Shown here: one piece after another, positions 1,569-29,466 of the stretch | Position numbering within the stretch: position 1 is the first letter of the stretch | Layout of the letters: every line of letters begins with the position of its first letter | Assembly (NCBI GenBank): GCA_029265255.1 | Contig: JAJUJQ010000015.1 | Coordinates: forward strand, 1-32,631 | Reading direction: 5' to 3' | DNA from: Spirochaetota bacterium | GTDB lineage: Bacteria > Spirochaetota > Spirochaetia > Treponematales > Rectinemataceae | DNA length: 32,631 nucleotides | Made by a program: the position numbers and the translations under genes | The notes under the pieces: model-generated | Seen by the model: the letters and a program-made list of their open reading frames with translations, nothing else | Told to the model about the DNA's origin: nothing | The model's database searches: none

Positions 1569-3656
1569 TCAGCGGTTTTTCGTCCACTTTTCTCTGATAT
1601 CTCTGATCGATTGCAGAAGCCCGCTCTCTGGCTCACCTGCCTGGCGCAGGTTTTTCTCCGCCGCGTCGAGGTCCTCGAAACAGCGCTTGATGGTAGCGTC
1701 TTTCGCCTTAGACGCGGATTCGTTTTCCACCGTGAAATAGCGATAGAGGGCACGATAGAAATAGAGTAATCCCAGATCCCGGGGCTTGCCTTTTGCGCGA
1801 GCGATGGCGCTGTCGAGGAACGAAAGCCCTGCCTCGATCGAGGCTTTGCCTGGCTCGCCGAGCCAGTTGCCGAGAATATTTTCAAGCGTGGTGGCATCTT
1901 CGGCTACCGGGAAGCGTCGCAGCAGGTCCTCGCCAATTGCCTTCGCGCGGGTATGGTCTTGCGTGGTCACGGCGATACGGTGCCGTAGTACCAGCGCGAA
2001 CGAGTCGGCGGGGTAGAGCTGTTCCATGGCCGACAGATAGCGCTCGAGCGGTCCTTTCTTTCCGTTCTGAAAGGCAAGATCGGCGGCTTTTTGGTAGTAC
2101 TCCTGAGCCTCATCATTCGACCCGGCCTGGGAAATCAGAATATCGTACTGGCTGAGCGCATCGTCAATCATCAGCGCCGCGGACAGCGCTTCCGCGTAAA
2201 ACTGCCTGAGGGCGGCGTCGTCGGGCTCCCATTCGACTTGGTCGCGTAGAATGGCAACCGCGTCCATGCTCCGGCCCGCGTTCAGCAGCAGCTCAGCATA
2301 GTGCCGCACGCTTGTGGTATCGACCACAATATAAGATTCATTTGCCATGTCGAACCACCGAAGCCCTTCCTGGAGCACTTCTTCCTGCGGCAGCACGAAC
2401 GAACCAACGGCGTAATTGTATACATTGTAATAATAATCTCCCAACGCGAGCGCCAGAACCGGCGGTATCTCGACTCTTCGTCTTTCCAGTGCCTGCACCG
2501 CGCGCCTGGGGTCAAAATCGAAATGGGGCTCCTCCAGCCTGCCGTTGGCACGCGCCTGTTCGACATCGATATCAGGCGGTGTGTCGTAGAAGGTGAAGCC
2601 TAGATAATTGTCGGTGGACGAGCTGCCATCGAGCGCGACGCGGATTTTCTGAGCGAGGATATAAGGATCGCGATTGTCCGGGTCGGCCTCATCGAGGAGG
2701 CGCCAAGCCGAGAGCCATTTGCCATCCCAGACCAGCGCTTCGGCCTTGGCGATGCGTCTCTGGCTGGCAGGCGACGCCTCATCGAAGAAGGCTGGCAGCC
2801 AGTCGAGGTCCACATCATCGGCCCCGGGCTGCGCCATTCCCGCTCCCGACTGCATAGAGGCCGGCACGCCAGCCAGCGCCGCACCTTCCCCTGCCAGCTT
2901 CAAGAAGCCGAAGAATTGACTATAGATCGCGGGAATTTGCGCACCGCCTGTCTTCGCCTGGACACCCTCGCCAGTTCTGCGCAGCACCTCCGTGATGTCC
3001 AGCCCGGGTGTCGGCAGATGCCTGAGCAGTTCTTCGGTAAAAAGCCCGTTGCGGCCCGTGCCATCCTGCGCGACTTTCCCCGCGCTGGTGGAATACACCA
3101 CGATGCTGGCAGGTGGGAGCTGGCCGACGACCGCCAGCCCCCGGCTCGAGGAGGACCGTGCCCACGAGAAAGGATTGTCCCTGCAGGCATCCAACACGAT
3201 GATGTTCAGCTTGTTGCGCGCCTCGGAAAGGCTGTCGAGCACAAACTGCAGCGGTACAGCCCTGTTCCGCAGCATCGATTCAGAATTGAGCCGCGCGTCG
3301 AGGGGGATGAGGTAGTTTTCGCCATTTGACTGAATGCCATGCCCCGCGTAATAGAAGAAGCCAACCGAGTCTGGTACGACCTTAAGGCGGTCGCGGAAAC
3401 GGAGAATCGCGTCCTCCATGGTATAGAGGTCAGCGTCGGTCAGGATCTCGGCCTGAAAGCCGAGCGACGTGAGCGTAGCGCCAATGTCCATGGCGTCGTT
3501 CGCGGGGTTTCTGAGCGCGGCGCTGCCTTCGTACTTGCTGTTGCCGATCACAAGGGCGATGCGGCCGCCAGCGATATTTTGCTGGGCCGCCAGGGGCGCG
3601 AGCGCTCCGAGGCAGAGGATAACCGCGGCGATCGCCCCGGCACATAATCGACGCAT
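1569..3656 (-). CDS. secreted caspase-like (peptidase C14) protein with TPR-like tail
   Basis: This protein of 695 residues has a signal peptide at about 1-24 (LAPLAAQQ). A caspase-like domain follows at about 30-255. It starts with GGRIALVIGNSKYEG, has the catalytic His in FYYAGHG (His106) and the catalytic Cys in VLDACRDNPF (Cys158), and ends near YSQFFGFLKLAG. After a Gly/Ala/Pro-rich linker (255-285), a helical repeat-like tail fills about 290-695. Known relatives cleave after basic residues or act as signalling proteases, but the substrate here is unknown. The signal peptide points to the periplasm or outside. The tail is clearly related to the secreted protein at 28075-29466. ATG at 3656 follows GAGG by 8 bases. 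The gene appears monocistronic. Confidence 0.9.
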   Translation of the reverse strand: MRRLCAGAIAAVILCLGALAPLAAQQNIAGGRIALVIGNSKYEGSAALRNPANDAMDIGATLTSLGFQAEILTDADLYTMEDAILRFRDRLKVVPDSVGFFYYAGHGIQSNGENYLIPLDARLNSESMLRNRAVPLQFVLDSLSEARNKLNIIVLDACRDNPFSWARSSSSRGLAVVGQLPPASIVVYSTSAGKVAQDGTGRNGLFTEELLRHLPTPGLDITEVLRRTGEGVQAKTGGAQIPAIYSQFFGFLKLAGEGAALAGVPASMQSGAGMAQPGADDVDLDWLPAFFDEASPASQRRIAKAEALVWDGKWLSAWRLLDEADPDNRDPYILAQKIRVALDGSSSTDNYLGFTFYDTPPDIDVEQARANGRLEEPHFDFDPRRAVQALERRRVEIPPVLALALGDYYYNVYNYAVGSFVLPQEEVLQEGLRWFDMANESYIVVDTTSVRHYAELLLNAGRSMDAVAILRDQVEWEPDDAALRQFYAEALSAALMIDDALSQYDILISQAGSNDEAQEYYQKAADLAFQNGKKGPLERYLSAMEQLYPADSFALVLRHRIAVTTQDHTRAKAIGEDLLRRFPVAEDATTLENILGNWLGEPGKASIEAGLSFLDSAIARAKGKPRDLGLLYFYRALYRYFTVENESASKAKDATIKRCFEDLDAAEKNLRQAGEPESGLLQSIRDIREKWTKNR

Positions 3657-3841: not shown

Positions 3842-4600
3842 TCAGATCTTCATTTTTTCTACGCCTTCCTCGATCGGGTCGATGAGGTCGTCAGTTACGT
3901 CGGCACCCGCGAAGGTAGCCGCGCCTTGCTGATAGGTGCACTCGCGGTTGCCTTTCTCATCTTCCTTGATGTGGAACGCCATGGCATCGAAGACAAACGT
4001 GCCGGTATCCTTGCCGGACACCGCGACGGTGCCGCTGATGGTCATGTCGGTTTCAGCGCTTTTCTGAACCGAGGTGGCCTGGCCGCCCAGCGTCCCTGGT
4101 ATGTCGAGTTCCCAGACATAGGTCGCCGCAAAATGCTGGGTGATTGTGCCGCTGAAGGTGTAGCCGCCGCTGGCATAGTGGTCATACGTGGAGGTCACGT
4201 CGCAGGTGATGGACATAGTGATCTTCCAGAGTCCCGGCCCGTTGGGGTCGTCCTTGGCGGGAGGCTCTGTGTAGGTTCCGATGGCACTCCAAGCGCCATT
4301 TTCCCATTTCTGAACCGCGGTATATGTTGTTGCCGGCTCGCTCACGCCGTATGTAAGGCCGGTCGCGATGGTTCCGGTTTCGCGGGTAGCGAGCGTTCTG
4401 ACAGCTGCGGAAAGCAAACCCTTGGGCGAAGCGCTTTCGTTTGCCGCTGTCTTCTGGGCTCCGAGCGCTTTCCCTCCCACTTTGACAAGCGCTCCTCCGA
4501 TAGCCTGATATTTGCTCATGAACAAGGACTCGAACAGCGAACATCCCGCGAGCAAAACTAGCGCTGAAATGATTGCCATGACGCCCGAAATCTTCCTCAT
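3842..4600 (-). CDS. predicted lipoprotein of unknown function
   Basis: I do not recognise this protein of about 252 residues. It begins with MRKISGVMAIIS and a lipobox, LLAGCS, with Cys near residue 20, so it should be lipid-anchored in the envelope. The mature part starts SLFESLFMSKYQAIGG and has no clear catalytic motif. The second half is rich in Thr, Ser and Gly in alternating patterns (YASGGYTFSGTITQHF, DMTISGTVAVSGKDTGTF) that suggest a beta-strand fold. ATG at 4600 is preferred over an upstream TTG because GGGGAGG stands 5 bases before it. It has its own promoter with a palindrome at the predicted transcription start. Confidence 0.75.
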   Translation of the reverse strand: MRKISGVMAIISALVLLAGCSLFESLFMSKYQAIGGALVKVGGKALGAQKTAANESASPKGLLSAAVRTLATRETGTIATGLTYGVSEPATTYTAVQKWENGAWSAIGTYTEPPAKDDPNGPGLWKITMSITCDVTSTYDHYASGGYTFSGTITQHFAATYVWELDIPGTLGGQATSVQKSAETDMTISGTVAVSGKDTGTFVFDAMAFHIKEDEKGNRECTYQQGAATFAGADVTDDLIDPIEEGVEKMKI

Positions 4601-4627
4601 CAATGCCTCCCCACACTGGTGAAATGG

Positions 4628-10386: not shown

Positions 10387-12078
10387 TTATCTGCTCAGCA
10401 TTTCCGCCAGCTCTGCCAGCCGCACGAATTCGGCGCGATAGCCGTCGTAGTCCTTGCCTTTCGCGTCACGCGCGCGAGCGATTGTCGACTGCCATGACGC
10501 GCTGCCCCGCCAGCGACTTTCGCGCAACAGCATACCGAATTCGATCACCGCGGTGGCAAAGCGGAAATCGTCACCCTGGGCGGAAAGAGGAAGGAGGATG
10601 TCCTGCCCTTTCAGCCGGCTTGTCATGAGACGGCTTGTCTCGGCGCCATCGCCAGGGATCTTGTACCGCAATCGGAACACCAGCATGTCGTCGGAGGGGA
10701 CAAGCACCTGTTTCTGGAATTCCAGTGGTTCCGAGGCGGGCTTAGGCTGGGAGACACTTTGGGATGCGCTTTCAACACCAGCAGGTACGATTTCATAGAA
10801 AGCGGTGACAGTCTGTCCCGCCCCCATCTCCCCTGCGTCCTTTGTGTCATCGTTGAAGTCTTCGCGAGCGAGCAGACGGTTTTCATACCCTATGAGCCGG
10901 TACTGGCTGACTTTAGCCGGATTGAATTCGATCTGGATTTTGACGTCCTTCGCGACGGTATAGAGCGAACCCCAGATTTCCTTCATGAACACTTTCTTGC
11001 CTTCCAGCAGGGTGTCGATATACGCGAAGGTGCCATTCCCTTTATCGGCAATGATCTCCATGCGCGCGTCCTTATAATTGCCCATGCCGAAGCCTGCCAC
11101 GGTGAGAAAGATCTGTTCCTTTCGCTTTTCTTCGACAAGGCGTTCAAGTTCCGAGGTCGAGCTCACACCAACGTTGAAATCGCCATCGGTGCAGAGAATG
11201 ATGCGATTGTTGCCTCCATTGATAAAGTTTTTCTTCGCAACTTCGTAGGCGAGGAGGAGGCCTGCGCCACCGGCGGTCGAACCGCCAGCCTCGAGTTTCT
11301 CGATCGCCTCGAGGATGCGCTCCTTCTTCGAACCTGGAGTTGAATCGAGTACAAGCCCCGCGCTGCCGGCATAGGCAACAATCGATACGCGATCCTGGGG
11401 ACGGAGCTGCTGTACTAGCAGGCTGAGGCTGTCCTTCACCAGCGGCAGTTTTTCTGTAGTATCCATGGAACCGGATGTGTCGATAAGAAAAACCAGATTG
11501 GAGGCGGGAATATCCTCGGTTTTAATGGCGCGTGCCTTAATGGCAACGCGAAGGATATGGTGGCTGGGAGCCCACGGGGCTTCTGACATGGCGAACGTCA
11601 CCCCGACAGGGTGTTCGCCCTGTGGTTCCGGATAGTCGTATGTAAAATAATTGACCAGCTCTTCAATACGGACGGCATCCTTGGGAGGGAGTTGTCTCAT
11701 CTGCGTCAAATAACGGCGCACATTCGCGTAGCTGGCAGTATCGACATCGATGGAAAAAGTCGAAACCGGATTATCCAGAGCTGACAGAAAGGGATTATCC
11801 GTGATGCGCTGGTATTCTTCGGTGCTGAATTCACCGGCACTCGGGCTTTGAGCGGCTGACTCATATCCCGTGCTTCCCGGCACAGAAGTCGGCATGCCGG
11901 ATGGAGCTATCGCCTCGAGAATTATCCCCTTCTCGGCCGCGGGAGCCGGCAGGGCAGCTCCTGTGGGTGTAGACGACGCCGGAGCCGAAGCACATGCCAC
12001 CGCAAGCGCCACCACGGTCAGCACCGCGCCAGCTGACAAAAGCAACCTGAATCCGAACATCCCCGATTCTTTTTTCAT
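10387..12078 (-). CDS. VWA-domain lipoprotein (YfbK-like)
   Basis: This protein of 563 residues begins with a signal sequence ending in ALAVAC (Cys29). The signal is a relaxed lipobox of the kind accepted in spirochaetes, so lipid anchoring is likely. A Pro/Ala/Ser-rich linker runs to about 85. The VWA-associated N-terminal domain (about 85-190; FSIDVDTASYANVRRYL, RIEELVNYF), the VWA domain (about 193-370) with a complete metal-ion site (DTSGSMD at 200-206, then TDGDFNVG) and a C-terminal DUF3520-like domain (about 385-560) follow in YfbK order. The role in this family is unclear; protein binding at the envelope is likely. GGGGAGG stands 8 bases before ATG. It diverges from the MFS gene. Confidence 0.88.
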   Translation of the reverse strand: MKKESGMFGFRLLLSAGAVLTVVALAVACASAPASSTPTGAALPAPAAEKGIILEAIAPSGMPTSVPGSTGYESAAQSPSAGEFSTEEYQRITDNPFLSALDNPVSTFSIDVDTASYANVRRYLTQMRQLPPKDAVRIEELVNYFTYDYPEPQGEHPVGVTFAMSEAPWAPSHHILRVAIKARAIKTEDIPASNLVFLIDTSGSMDTTEKLPLVKDSLSLLVQQLRPQDRVSIVAYAGSAGLVLDSTPGSKKERILEAIEKLEAGGSTAGGAGLLLAYEVAKKNFINGGNNRIILCTDGDFNVGVSSTSELERLVEEKRKEQIFLTVAGFGMGNYKDARMEIIADKGNGTFAYIDTLLEGKKVFMKEIWGSLYTVAKDVKIQIEFNPAKVSQYRLIGYENRLLAREDFNDDTKDAGEMGAGQTVTAFYEIVPAGVESASQSVSQPKPASEPLEFQKQVLVPSDDMLVFRLRYKIPGDGAETSRLMTSRLKGQDILLPLSAQGDDFRFATAVIEFGMLLRESRWRGSASWQSTIARARDAKGKDYDGYRAEFVRLAELAEMLSR

Positions 12079-26081: not shown

Positions 26082-26891
26082 TTATTCCCAGTTGATGAGA
26101 TTCGCCGCTTCGATCTGCTTGAAATACCGCACTGTTCCTACGCGCAGCTCATTCGTCGCGTCCTCGTCGCAGACAATGATCGCCTTTGGATGCAGCTGCA
26201 AACAGCTCAGCGTCCACATATGGTTAACGCCCATTTCAACCGAATGACGCAAAGCCCTTGCCTTTTCGAATCCCGATACGAGAATGAGCACTTCGCGCGC
26301 ATCCATGATGGTACCCACCCCCACGGTGAGCGCCTGGGAGGGCACCTTATCCGGATCGCCCCCAAAGAAGCGCGCGTTTGAAAGCTTCGTGTCCCGGGTC
26401 AGCGTCTTGATGCGTGTCCGCGACGAGAGCGACGAACCCGGCTCGTTGAACGCGATATGCCCATCCGCCCCTACCCCGCCAACAAAGAGATCAATTCCCC
26501 CAGCATGTTCAATCGTCTGTTCGTAGCGGCGGCATTCTTCTTCGAGATTTGTCGCCATACCATTAAGAATGTGGACATTGGTCGGCTCGATATCGATGTG
26601 GGAGAAAAAATTGTCCCACATGAAGCGGTGATAACTCTGCGGATGGTCTTCGGGAAGCCCCACATACTCGTCCATATTGAATGTCATGACATGCCGAAAG
26701 CTGAGCCGCTTTTCCGAAACGAGGCGGATAAGCTCGCGATACATGCCAAGCGGGGTCGAGCCTGTCGGGAGACCGAGCACAAACAGCCTTGATTCGCCAT
26801 GTTCCCGATGATGCTCTCTGATCCGCTGCGCCACATGATGCGCCGCCCAGCGTGACACCGCTTGGTAATCATCCTGAATGATTACTCTCAT
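26082..26891 (-). CDS. nagB: glucosamine-6-phosphate deaminase
   Basis: The 269-residue enzyme converts glucosamine 6-phosphate to fructose 6-phosphate and ammonia. Family landmarks are [16 protein letters not shown] (phosphate loop), [19 protein letters not shown] with the catalytic Asp, [20 protein letters not shown] and [17 protein letters not shown]. Length matches E. coli NagB (266). Its ATG overlaps the nagA stop in ATGA, so the two are translated together, and AGGAG lies 5 bases upstream inside nagA. It ends facing the ATL gene with 37 bases between. Confidence 0.96.
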
Positions 26892-28069
26892 ATTGTCTCC
26901 TGCGCGTACACGATGCGCCCGTTCACGGCAGTCATCCGCACCTTAAAATTGCGGTCCGCCAAGACCATGCTGGCCCTGTACCCCGGGCTTATCATGCCCC
27001 GGTCTCGAAGCCCGAAGATACGTGCGGGATTGGCGCTGGCGGTTTTAATGGCACTTTCCAGCGGTACGCCGAACTCGACAAGATTTCTAATACCCTCAAT
27101 CATGGTGAGTGAACTTCCAGCGATGACCCCATCGCTGGCGCGGAAAAAAAGATTGTTCGAAAAATACACTTCCTCATCATTAGCAAAGAGCGGCCCTCCC
27201 GAATCCTGCTTGGTCGGCTTGAGGGAATCGGTCACCAGCACAATGTTCCCTTCGGGTTTGTCGCGAAAGAGAAGGCGAATAAGGTCGGGGTGCACATGGA
27301 GGCCATCGGCGATGATCTCGCAGCTCAGATCCGGCTGGATGAGCACCGCGCCGACCGCGTTTGGGTTGCGATGGTGAAGCCGGCTCATGGCGTTGAACAT
27401 ATGGGTCGCGTGGCGAATACCCGCCTGCATGCCTTCGATCATGTTTTCATAGCTGGCATCGGTATGCCCGGCCTGAAGCACAATGCCCAGCCGATTGCAG
27501 AAGAGCGCCAGCTCCCGCATGCCCTTGAGTTCCGGCGCGACCGTCATCGATACGATCCTGCCTTCCGATGCGTCCCACAGCCGCTGCATAAGCGCGAGGT
27601 CAACAGGCTGAACGAATTCCATCCTCTGAACACCGAGCATACTGGGCGAAATAAAAGGACCTTCCAGATGAATGCCGACGATCTCAGCGCCCTCTTCCTG
27701 TCCCATCGCCTCGACAACCGCCCGTATCGAAAGGATCATGTCCTCTTCAGCCATGGGGTAGATGGTAGGAATGAAAGCAGTGACACCCCATTGAGGCAGA
27801 ATCCGGCTCATCTGACGTATGGAATCGGCACGCATATCTTCGGTGCCATAGCCGCCTATGCCATGAATATGTGTATCGATAAGACCTGGAAACAGATAAG
27901 CGCCGCCGGCATCAAGCAACCGGACCTCGGGGCCGAATACTTTCTGCGAAAAGCGGCGCTCTGAAAAAATGTCGGTGATATCCGTACCTTCCACAAGCAC
28001 CGCACTGCGGTCCATGCGCGCATAACCCGCAATGACGGTGGCATTGTGGATGCACAGAGAAGGAGTCAT
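26888..28069 (-). CDS. nagA: N-acetylglucosamine-6-phosphate deacetylase
   Basis: The 393-residue amidohydrolase removes acetate from N-acetylglucosamine 6-phosphate, supplying the substrate of NagB. The metal and catalytic residues are visible: [11 protein letters not shown], the Glu in [11 protein letters not shown], His in [10 protein letters not shown], His in [13 protein letters not shown] and the catalytic Asp in [10 protein letters not shown]. It sits between the TPR-like gene (5 bases upstream) and nagB (4-base overlap), so the three form an operon. The pathway recycles cell-wall or chitin amino sugars. No PTS or other GlcNAc transporter is present here. No strong ribosome site precedes its ATG, which fits coupling to the upstream gene. 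Confidence 0.95.
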
Positions 28070-28074
28070 GACAG

Positions 28075-29466
28075 TCAGTTAGTAGCCCCTGAGGTGGCAT
28101 CAGTACCAGAAGGAGCGGGGGCTTCCTCGTATTCACTGGAAGCCGAGGTCGCGTCAGCCGGCGCGGCGCTGTCTGCTGGTGCTGCCTGTTCCTCATTGGC
28201 CTTAATGACCTGGTTCCATTCTTCCCTGAGCTGCTTTACAGTCTCAAACACCATGTTATCGCTGTCGTACACCGCACTGAAGTATTTTTCTGCCTGCGTG
28301 AGGTCTTCAAGCGCCAGCTTGAGGTCTTCTGTAGTTTGCGCCGTTTCGGCATGCATCAGCGCGCGATAGAAATAGAATCCGGAGAGCGCCTTGTCCTGAC
28401 CGGCATACTTTGCTATCGAGCGATCGAGGTAGTCGAATCCAGCCTGCGGATCCTGAGCGTTCAGCCAGGTGGACAGGAGCGAGCGCACAACATTCGGATC
28501 GGCATCGAATTTCGCGGTGACTTCATCCGCGGCGGCGGCGGCTTTCTCAGGCTGTTCCATCCTCACCGCTATGAGATGACGGATCAGGAACGGCACATAC
28601 TCGGTCGGATACCGGCCGATCATCGCGTCGACATAGAAATCGGTTTTCTGGGCGTCTGATGAATTGAGACCTGCCTTGATCCCTTCGATGAACGCGTTAT
28701 AAGTCGTGTCGTCCGTTCCGTTTTTCCCGATCACTCCATCAACGATAGGATAGACTTCATTGAAACGACCCATATTGTTCAGCGTACTTGCCAGTTTGAC
28801 GGCGAAGGAGGCCTCTTCTGGATACGCGGTGATGGCCTTTCTCAGCACTCTTTCCGCGCCTTCGAACAGCTGAAGATTGCCCAGCAATTCTGCCTGGTTC
28901 GAGAGGCTCCGCGACGTGTAGGTGTCATAGGCGAGGGCACGGTCATATTGCTCGACGGCTTTCTGCTGAACGGTCTCGCTGTCCTGGATCCAATCTTCGC
29001 CGTATTCTTTAAAAACTTGGTAGAGATAGTTGCCGAGCTCGTACGAAAGAACGGGAGGAATAACCTCACCGCTCGCTTCAAGGTTCTGTGCGAGATCAAG
29101 AGGATTGAAATCGGCGAGATTCTGCTCTGCAGGGGGATCGAGGCGGAGATCTTCCAGGCTCTTGCCTTCCGGCACATCAACAAAACCAAAGCTGATCAGC
29201 ATGCCATTCGCCACATTGCCCTCCAGAGCAAGGCGGATTTTTTCTGCCAGCACATAACCGTTTTTATTCTCGGGGTCCATCAGGGTGAGAAGGTTCCAAG
29301 CTTTGGACCACTGCCCCTTGGATTGCAGCACGCGTGATGCCGCGAGCCCCTCGCGCACGCTCTGATCGGCATCGGCATAGAACGAGGAAGGTGTCAGAAT
29401 TTCCTGGGCACCCGCCACAAGGGCCGTGGCGAGCAGGACCAGCATGATCACTGCGGATCTTTTCAT
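28075..29466 (-). CDS. secreted TPR-like protein, paralog of the caspase tail
   Basis: This protein of 463 residues has a signal peptide at 1-20 (LATALVAGAQE), helical repeats of TPR type from about 44 to 425 and a disordered Ala/Ser/Pro/Glu-rich end. Its repeat region lines up with residues 300-695 of the caspase-like protein: GQWSKAWNLLTLMDPEN matches GKWLSAWRLLDEADPDN, and YVLAEKIRLALEG matches YILAQKIRVALDG. IPPVLSYELGNYLYQV, GFYFYRALMHA and VKQLREEW also match. The protease domain is missing. I know no named family. It is the first gene of the nagA-nagB operon. AAGGAG lies 7 bases before ATG. Confidence 0.88.
   Translation of the reverse strand: MKRSAVIMLVLLATALVAGAQEILTPSSFYADADQSVREGLAASRVLQSKGQWSKAWNLLTLMDPENKNGYVLAEKIRLALEGNVANGMLISFGFVDVPEGKSLEDLRLDPPAEQNLADFNPLDLAQNLEASGEVIPPVLSYELGNYLYQVFKEYGEDWIQDSETVQQKAVEQYDRALAYDTYTSRSLSNQAELLGNLQLFEGAERVLRKAITAYPEEASFAVKLASTLNNMGRFNEVYPIVDGVIGKNGTDDTTYNAFIEGIKAGLNSSDAQKTDFYVDAMIGRYPTEYVPFLIRHLIAVRMEQPEKAAAAADEVTAKFDADPNVVRSLLSTWLNAQDPQAGFDYLDRSIAKYAGQDKALSGFYFYRALMHAETAQTTEDLKLALEDLTQAEKYFSAVYDSDNMVFETVKQLREEWNQVIKANEEQAAPADSAAPADATSASSEYEEAPAPSGTDATSGATN

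Follow-up and report, generated by a model that had tools for sequence, protein, structure and literature searches.

A spirochaete caspase-family protein carries a predicted TPR tail homologous to a stand-alone protein of the same genome

Many bacterial caspases with export-like starts are, to our knowledge, familiar from their sequences alone, which leaves the question of what directs them. The stretch of DNA analysed here (the window; 32,631 nucleotides from a spirochaete of the Rectinemataceae) poses it in a concrete form. It encodes a caspase-family protein with a long C-terminal tail (hereafter the fused protein) and, elsewhere, a smaller protein (the stand-alone protein) that an initial annotation, made from the sequence alone, had aligned with that tail. 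What is the tail, how did it come to be joined to a protease, and what might it do there? The features on which our answer rests are collected in Table 1.

Table 1. Coordinates of the features of the window and the evidence for each
Feature	Position	Strand	Basis
Caspase-family protein with TPR tail, 695 aa	1569..3656	-	PF00656 130.5 bits, cut-off 21.4
Probable Sec export signal, residues 1-25 (MRRLC...PLAAQ)	3582..3656	-	read by eye
Caspase (Peptidase_C14) domain, residues 32-246	2919..3563	-	Pfam scan
Presumed catalytic His, residue 106 (YAGHG)	3339..3341	-	invariant in 12/12 aligned fused proteins
Presumed catalytic Cys, residue 158 (DACRDNP)	3183..3185	-	invariant in 12/12 aligned fused proteins
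Low-complexity linker, protease to tail, residues about 251-285	2802..2906	-	low pLDDT, variable length
Tail, predicted TPR superhelix, residues 286-695	1572..2801	-	BLASTP, hhalign, structure model
Lipoprotein-like gene	3842..4603	-	nothing in Pfam or NCBIfam at E ≤ 1e-5
Von Willebrand factor A protein, YfbK type	10387..12078	-	
nagB, glucosamine-6-phosphate deaminase	26082..26891	-	TIGR00502 403 bits, cut-off 236.9
nagA, N-acetylglucosamine-6-phosphate deacetylase	26888..28069	-	TIGR00221 405.7 bits, cut-off 225.65
Stand-alone exported-looking TPR protein, 463 aa, tail paralogue	28075..29466	-	BLASTP, hhalign, model
Stand-alone part homologous to the tail, residues 28-419	28210..29385	-	BLASTP
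C-terminal peptide DATSGATN of the stand-alone protein	28078..28101	-	absent from fused protein

The tail and the stand-alone protein are co-linear homologues

The two reading frames were recovered at the annotated positions, each on the minus strand. The fused protein starts with a basic stretch, a hydrophobic core and small residues before a glutamine, and the stand-alone protein also has an export-like start (both read by eye); hence both are probably secreted, as had been proposed. The Pfam scan of the fused protein lists PF00656 and, up to E ≤ 1, no CHAT model, and NF047832 (caspase, EACC1-associated type) scores 54.5 bits, under its cut-off of 140. A search of PDB sequences with the whole fused protein returned 10 distinct matches at E ≤ 0.01, all of them MALT1 paracaspases found through the caspase half, and no TPR chain was among these matches. 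MALT1, an animal signalling protein, is the best solved sequence match of that half (E 4.5e-13) and lacks such a tail. We take His106 to be catalytic, as in caspases. For orthocaspases, an excerpt of one account states the role of the catalytic His and describes cleavage after positively charged residues (PMC6426788).

The initial annotation had matched residues about 300-695 of the fused protein with about 44-425 of the stand-alone protein and quoted five pairs of blocks. All five pairs are present in the order given, and the limits are correct within about 15 residues: BLASTP aligned residues 289-693 with 28-419 at 28% identity and 48% positives, with 13 gap positions and, as a single comparison, an E-value of 2e-46. 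The suggested profile comparison was carried out with hhalign, and a 12-row alignment of caspase tails matched a 24-row alignment of stand-alone proteins with probability 100 and E 4.6e-64 over 397 columns. The tail and the stand-alone protein are thus confirmed as co-linear homologues, far beyond chance.

Could this likeness be that of any two TPR proteins, as the initial annotation had allowed? As the whole explanation this is ruled out, because the N-terminal piece alone aligns over 125 residues without gaps at 36% identity and E 2e-27; the C-terminal piece alone gives E 3e-20. The fused protein as a whole, too, singles out the stand-alone protein while reaching no TPR chain of the PDB at E ≤ 0.01. 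When PDB TPR chains were matched to the profiles, the best-scoring stretch of every chain in the 60 rows listed, of 329 and of 102 matches, started at profile position 150 or later. Structural matches cover the N-terminal part too, from model residue 34, which points to a TPR-like shape there. Both window proteins are predicted to form TPR superhelices with an identical set of 22 helices and strands in the same order, including two short strands inserted after the third helix, an agreement that is not independent since the two structure inputs share alignment rows. Among the 50 best rows of each fold search, those recognisable by title are helical-repeat proteins. No caspase-titled PDB row is among the 50 listed for the fused model, which means little, since matches to the TPR part take up that list and the caspase is modelled poorly. 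That model has a pTM of 0.61; parts of its caspase fall under pLDDT 50, linker residues 251-280 have a mean pLDDT of 28-32, the linker varies in length among aligned fused proteins, and the placing of caspase against tail is untrustworthy. Since a superhelix of helix pairs is predicted for both proteins, the fold does not appear to be a new one.

The initial annotation knew of no named family for the tail, and this holds in part. No Pfam or NCBIfam cut-off is passed by the tail or by the stand-alone protein of the window, TPR_16 (21.3 bits against 32.7) and TPR_14 (19.3 against 23.5) falling short in the stand-alone protein and TPR_8 (13.4 against 25.7) in the fused one; many relatives, however, come with a precomputed label for generic TPRs, PF14559 or PF13428 for instance.

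Distribution and gene neighbourhood

A tail found in all phyla, the other outcome that had been envisaged, is not what the searches returned. Every match in the protein searches that bears an organism name is from a spirochaete (Rectinema, Rectinemataceae, Spirochaetales, Spirochaetota, Treponema and others); most matches are unnamed. These searches score the roughly 8,000 candidates that share most short words, and one further search filled with generic TPR proteins. A scan of one genome per species across 84,980 species, based on an exact pattern that misses distant relatives, gave 15 loci, 13 with spirochaete titles and two titled 'bacterium'.

We then tallied both forms in 30 genomes of the family-level group around one genome, G001; all genomes surveyed are draft assemblies with no completeness given. 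The stand-alone form (E < 1e-50, open frame below 600 residues; the copies in G403 and G406 are cut by contig ends) was found in 25 of the 30 and the fused form (frame of 696-787 residues) in six (G001, G003, G007, G008, G012 and G415), which bears out the view of the tail as an independent domain occurring both joined to a caspase and alone. Five of the six also have the stand-alone form. The sixth, G415, has no intact copy, and a contig of it starts with the 3' end of the stand-alone gene, followed by nagA. In 20 of the 30 genomes the stand-alone form occurs without any fused form found. Over 390 genomes of the order, a match across caspase and tail together was present in at least six, identical to those above, with at most two candidates scored per genome. 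Over the phylum, with at most four, matches at E ≤ 1.3e-13 came from at least 20 of the 392 genomes. Apart from G001, G006, G012, G257 and G341, the 15 remaining genomes have mostly proteins of about 400 residues, to which we gave the working label Treponema-type for distant relatives of this length. Eleven of these were read (10 from the phylum search and one from G002) and 10 aligned; most retain the LAxKI, F-x-F, PxL and LGxYY blocks. G002 has a stand-alone protein linked to nagA and a second, Treponema-type copy elsewhere (L072). The phylum search also yielded an additional fused protein in G341 (locus L064), outside the 30 family-level genomes, which may reflect transfer or a deeper origin.

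In the window, 5 bases separate the end of the stand-alone gene from nagA, and nagA and nagB overlap by 4 bases. The family group provides 27 loci for comparison (two from G408 and one fragment in G415); in 25 of them the contig continues for more than 132 bases beyond the gene. At 22 of these 25, a nagA match in the same orientation occurs downstream. The match ends are never more than 1304 bases apart, and in 14 loci they are within 170 bases; the three misses are both G408 copies and G410. The distance exceeds 1 kb in five loci. In four of these, from the distant members G257, G402, G406 and G411, a BadF/BcrA-type gene on the opposite strand lies between the two genes (L071 10187-11104, L145 7061-7981, L147 10213-11124 and L151 1499-2404). 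With the G257 gene as query, these genes were found at 46-62% identity, and the 20 loci searched held no further match. They perhaps encode an N-acetylglucosamine kinase; the G257 gene scores 63.9 bits against that model, which has a cut-off of 370.

How much does this linkage mean? In close relatives it is partly general synteny, because the surrounding order (ABC-F, EamA, MarC, deoxynucleoside kinase) is kept as well. Its persistence in members with a tail just 28-31% identical is better evidence for a tie to nagA. Even so, the tie to amino sugars may be purely positional, given that nagA is absent at three of the 25 loci and that the fetched flanks of Treponema-type loci gave no nagA match in 11 of 11. 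NagA and NagB are cytoplasmic, whereas the stand-alone protein looks exported, which also counts against such a tie.

No neighbour is common to all loci of the fused gene, and in the loci read it is not beside nagA. The window, G001 and G415 share one region around it, G003 shares genes with G001, and G008 and G012 share another region. A lipoprotein-like gene adjoins the caspase gene in the window. In G415, the last 42 residues of its product have a match that lies upstream of the fused gene, at a distance of about 2.7 kb; the window also encodes a von Willebrand factor A protein (Table 1).

History of the fusion and of the caspase

To place the fusion in time, we compared a tree of tails with a tree of caspase domains. 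The tail tree has 43 rows (37 of the 49 genome-search rows, the two window proteins and four rows from protein searches) and was built by a quick method with a midpoint root and no bootstrap. All 11 fused tails form one branch (SH-aLRT 100), all 11 Treponema-type rows another (SH-aLRT 100) and 14 nagA-type rows a third, weak one (SH-aLRT 82); fused and nagA-type rows group together at SH-aLRT 98. Twelve rows were excluded: four more of the nagA type, three fragments, three generic TPRs, a duplicate and an odd lipoprotein. In the caspase tree (20 domains, with several long branches among other caspases and one row only 38% filled), all 10 fused proteins group together (88/90, not starred), and its first branches are those of the tail tree: G008 and G012, then G341, then the rest. 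Because the fused tails are one clade and their caspases group with the same first branches, the most likely history is one duplication of the tail, one fusion after it, and then descent. On the tail tree, tail and stand-alone protein are paralogues whose separation is older than the divergence of the genomes that have both. That just six of 30 genomes show the fused form may be due to gene loss, to transfer into or out of G341, or to gaps in the drafts.

The two halves of the fused protein have changed to different degrees. In 14 fused relatives, identity to the window protein is 68-88% over the caspase half and 34-65% over the tail (one more row, P0169, was set aside because its halves could not be separated). 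PF00656 matches occur in 27 of the 30 family-level genomes; G257, a 4.7 Mb draft, has 11 (loci L118, L138 and others). Ten other caspases chosen from these PF00656 loci, six of them cut by the end of the fetched stretch, were scanned with Pfam at E ≤ 1e-5: two carry ankyrin repeats (L117, L123), three PEGA (L115, L139, L140) and five nothing beyond the caspase. The ankyrin and PEGA caspases have export-like starts (by eye) and belong to the same family-level group. We read these proteins as one protease kind whose C-terminal binding parts have probably been exchanged, the TPR tail among them, although the fast evolution of the TPR domain may reflect relaxed constraint and nothing else.

The linker is poor in Lys and Arg (103 of 4789 residues, or 2.2%, against 7.9% in the tail; 13 of 104 linkers have none), in a set where three of 107 proteins could not be split and many rows are near-copies. 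Protection from self-cleavage was considered as a reason and dropped, since few linkers are fully free of these residues and low-complexity sequence is perhaps poor in them anyway.

Possible roles of the tail

We suggest, with a probability of about 0.5, that the fused protein is an exported caspase-family peptidase whose TPR tail recognises one or a few envelope proteins and in this way controls access to the protease. The protein would be exported to the periplasm, the superhelix of the tail would hold its partner there, and the tail, as the partner-choosing part, would set what the caspase meets. The tail itself would have arisen when an exported TPR adaptor already resident in the cell was duplicated; the other copy still heads the tail-nagA-nagB row. 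This stand-alone copy would then be the older adaptor, working without this protease and, because of nagA-nagB, possibly in amino-sugar or peptidoglycan turnover. By analogy, protease and adaptor might serve in one chain as LbcA or NlpI do for periplasmic proteases.

LbcA of Pseudomonas aeruginosa is, according to an excerpt of its description, a spiral of TPRs that might wind around a substrate and hand it over to CtpA (PMC8764530). It differs in being a separate lipoprotein, CtpA is a C-terminal processing protease and not a caspase, and the only kinship seen is that of TPRs: the LbcA chain 7rqf is among our profile and fold matches, where many other TPR chains score better. In NlpI-Prc of Escherichia coli, a TPR adaptor cradle is said, in the text excerpted, to dock the peptidoglycan hydrolase MepS onto the periplasmic protease Prc (PMC5686067). 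NlpI has four TPRs and is a homodimeric lipoprotein, and its PDZ protease is separate. Unlike these lipoproteins, neither window protein has a lipobox Cys at its signal end (by eye); such a Cys is present in two distant relatives, L101 and L074.

Closer in make-up are the prokaryotic caspase homologues (orthocaspases and bacterial metacaspases; Peptidase C14), with which the fused protein shares PF00656, the His-Cys pair, an N-terminal hydrophobic signal and C-terminal protein-binding repeats. An excerpt of a 2012 survey of 671 such sequences gives TPR_1 in 7.0% and TPR_2 in 5.8% and has spirochaetes among the named phyla, so on its account caspase plus TPR is an already known architecture class (PMC3501461). 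What sets the window protein apart is that its tail belongs to a family of its own, a paralogue of which stands alone in the same genome, and open-access literature, searched by titles and the starts of abstracts, held nothing on this pair. The initial annotation had put the tail forward as a candidate undescribed system. The tail family, its stand-alone twin and the history of the fusion do seem undescribed as far as the literature searched goes, but the TPR fold and the caspase-TPR class are known. A further outcome is the delineation of a family of exported-looking TPR proteins in spirochaetes, to which the profile libraries searched give a generic TPR label or none.

The tail might instead regulate its own protease, covering the active site or driving self-assembly until a ligand releases the caspase. 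The flexible linker between the halves would suit such a switch, and excerpted accounts of TPR-CHAT (Craspase) describe a caspase-like protease that likewise has TPRs in one chain and is controlled by a bound partner. TPR-CHAT, though, has a CHAT domain and a CRISPR effector as partner, where the window protein has PF00656 and an export-like signal, and no predicted contact between the two halves is trustworthy. Because a stand-alone homologue exists without a protease, binding of an outside partner is likelier as the older role, and we regard the switch as unlikely. Quite unlikely, in our judgement, is that the two TPR proteins are unconnected scaffolds that took different partners after duplication, the caspase being a housekeeping envelope protease with a loose tail. 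The paralogues share only 28% identity, and the surroundings of the fused gene described above fit this; yet the N-terminal block and the inserted strands are retained in both, suggesting some common contact. At positions conserved in at least 90% of each group, counts that depend on the alignment, 26 are common, 14 fused-only and 13 stand-alone-only. Such group-specific positions, although they fit separate partners, allow a shared partner equally well.

The initial annotation had suggested that the two proteins could share a partner or compete for it. Could the stand-alone protein be a competitor or inhibitor, binding the partner of the tail or the caspase itself and so limiting the protease? 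The binding parts are homologous and five of the six fused-form genomes have both, with the remnant beside nagA in G415 accounting for the sixth. Co-occurrence says little here, however, because the stand-alone form is so common in the group with or without a fused form; moreover, the genes lie 24 kb apart in the window and the group-specific positions speak of divergence since the split, which makes this very doubtful. Most speculative, and hardly probable, is that the caspase captured a copy of the cell's own envelope adaptor as integrated bait, so that whatever binds, cleaves or disturbs the adaptor would engage the caspase, be it a phage, toxin, predator, host factor, or failing amino-sugar and peptidoglycan turnover. 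Integrated decoy domains work as such bait in plant immune receptors. If the same held here, the ankyrin and PEGA caspases would form a set of exported sensors acting through a common executioner. In PADLOC at E ≤ 0.01, the fused protein gave a single match, to a general caspase model (E 1.7e-10), and the stand-alone protein none, so that a place in an anti-phage system is neither supported nor excluded.

For the reading that we prefer, a partner-choosing tail, the locus is a favourable test case: one genome has the binding domain both joined to a protease and by itself, the fusion was apparently a single one, and an amino-sugar operon is linked. Comparing the ligands of the two TPR domains would tell whether bacterial caspase tails choose substrates.

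The nagA-nagB linkage and the related caspases with other tails were absent from the initial annotation, as was a C-terminal peptide of the stand-alone protein, DATSGAT[EN] (with variants DATSASTEW and DATTAATN), which follows a Pro/Ala/Ser-rich linker of variable length. Neither the aligned fused tails nor the aligned Treponema-type proteins show it. At the DNA level, a degenerate pattern of the peptide, allowing one mismatch, matched six of 11 genomes, once each and always at the end of the stand-alone gene, and the reversed control gave no match in the same 11. These confined matches and partial conservation (a loose pattern fits 34 of 60 stand-alone proteins, the misses including the cut-short P0023, P0025 and P0058) lend no support to a general sorting signal. 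The peptide is possibly a docking end.
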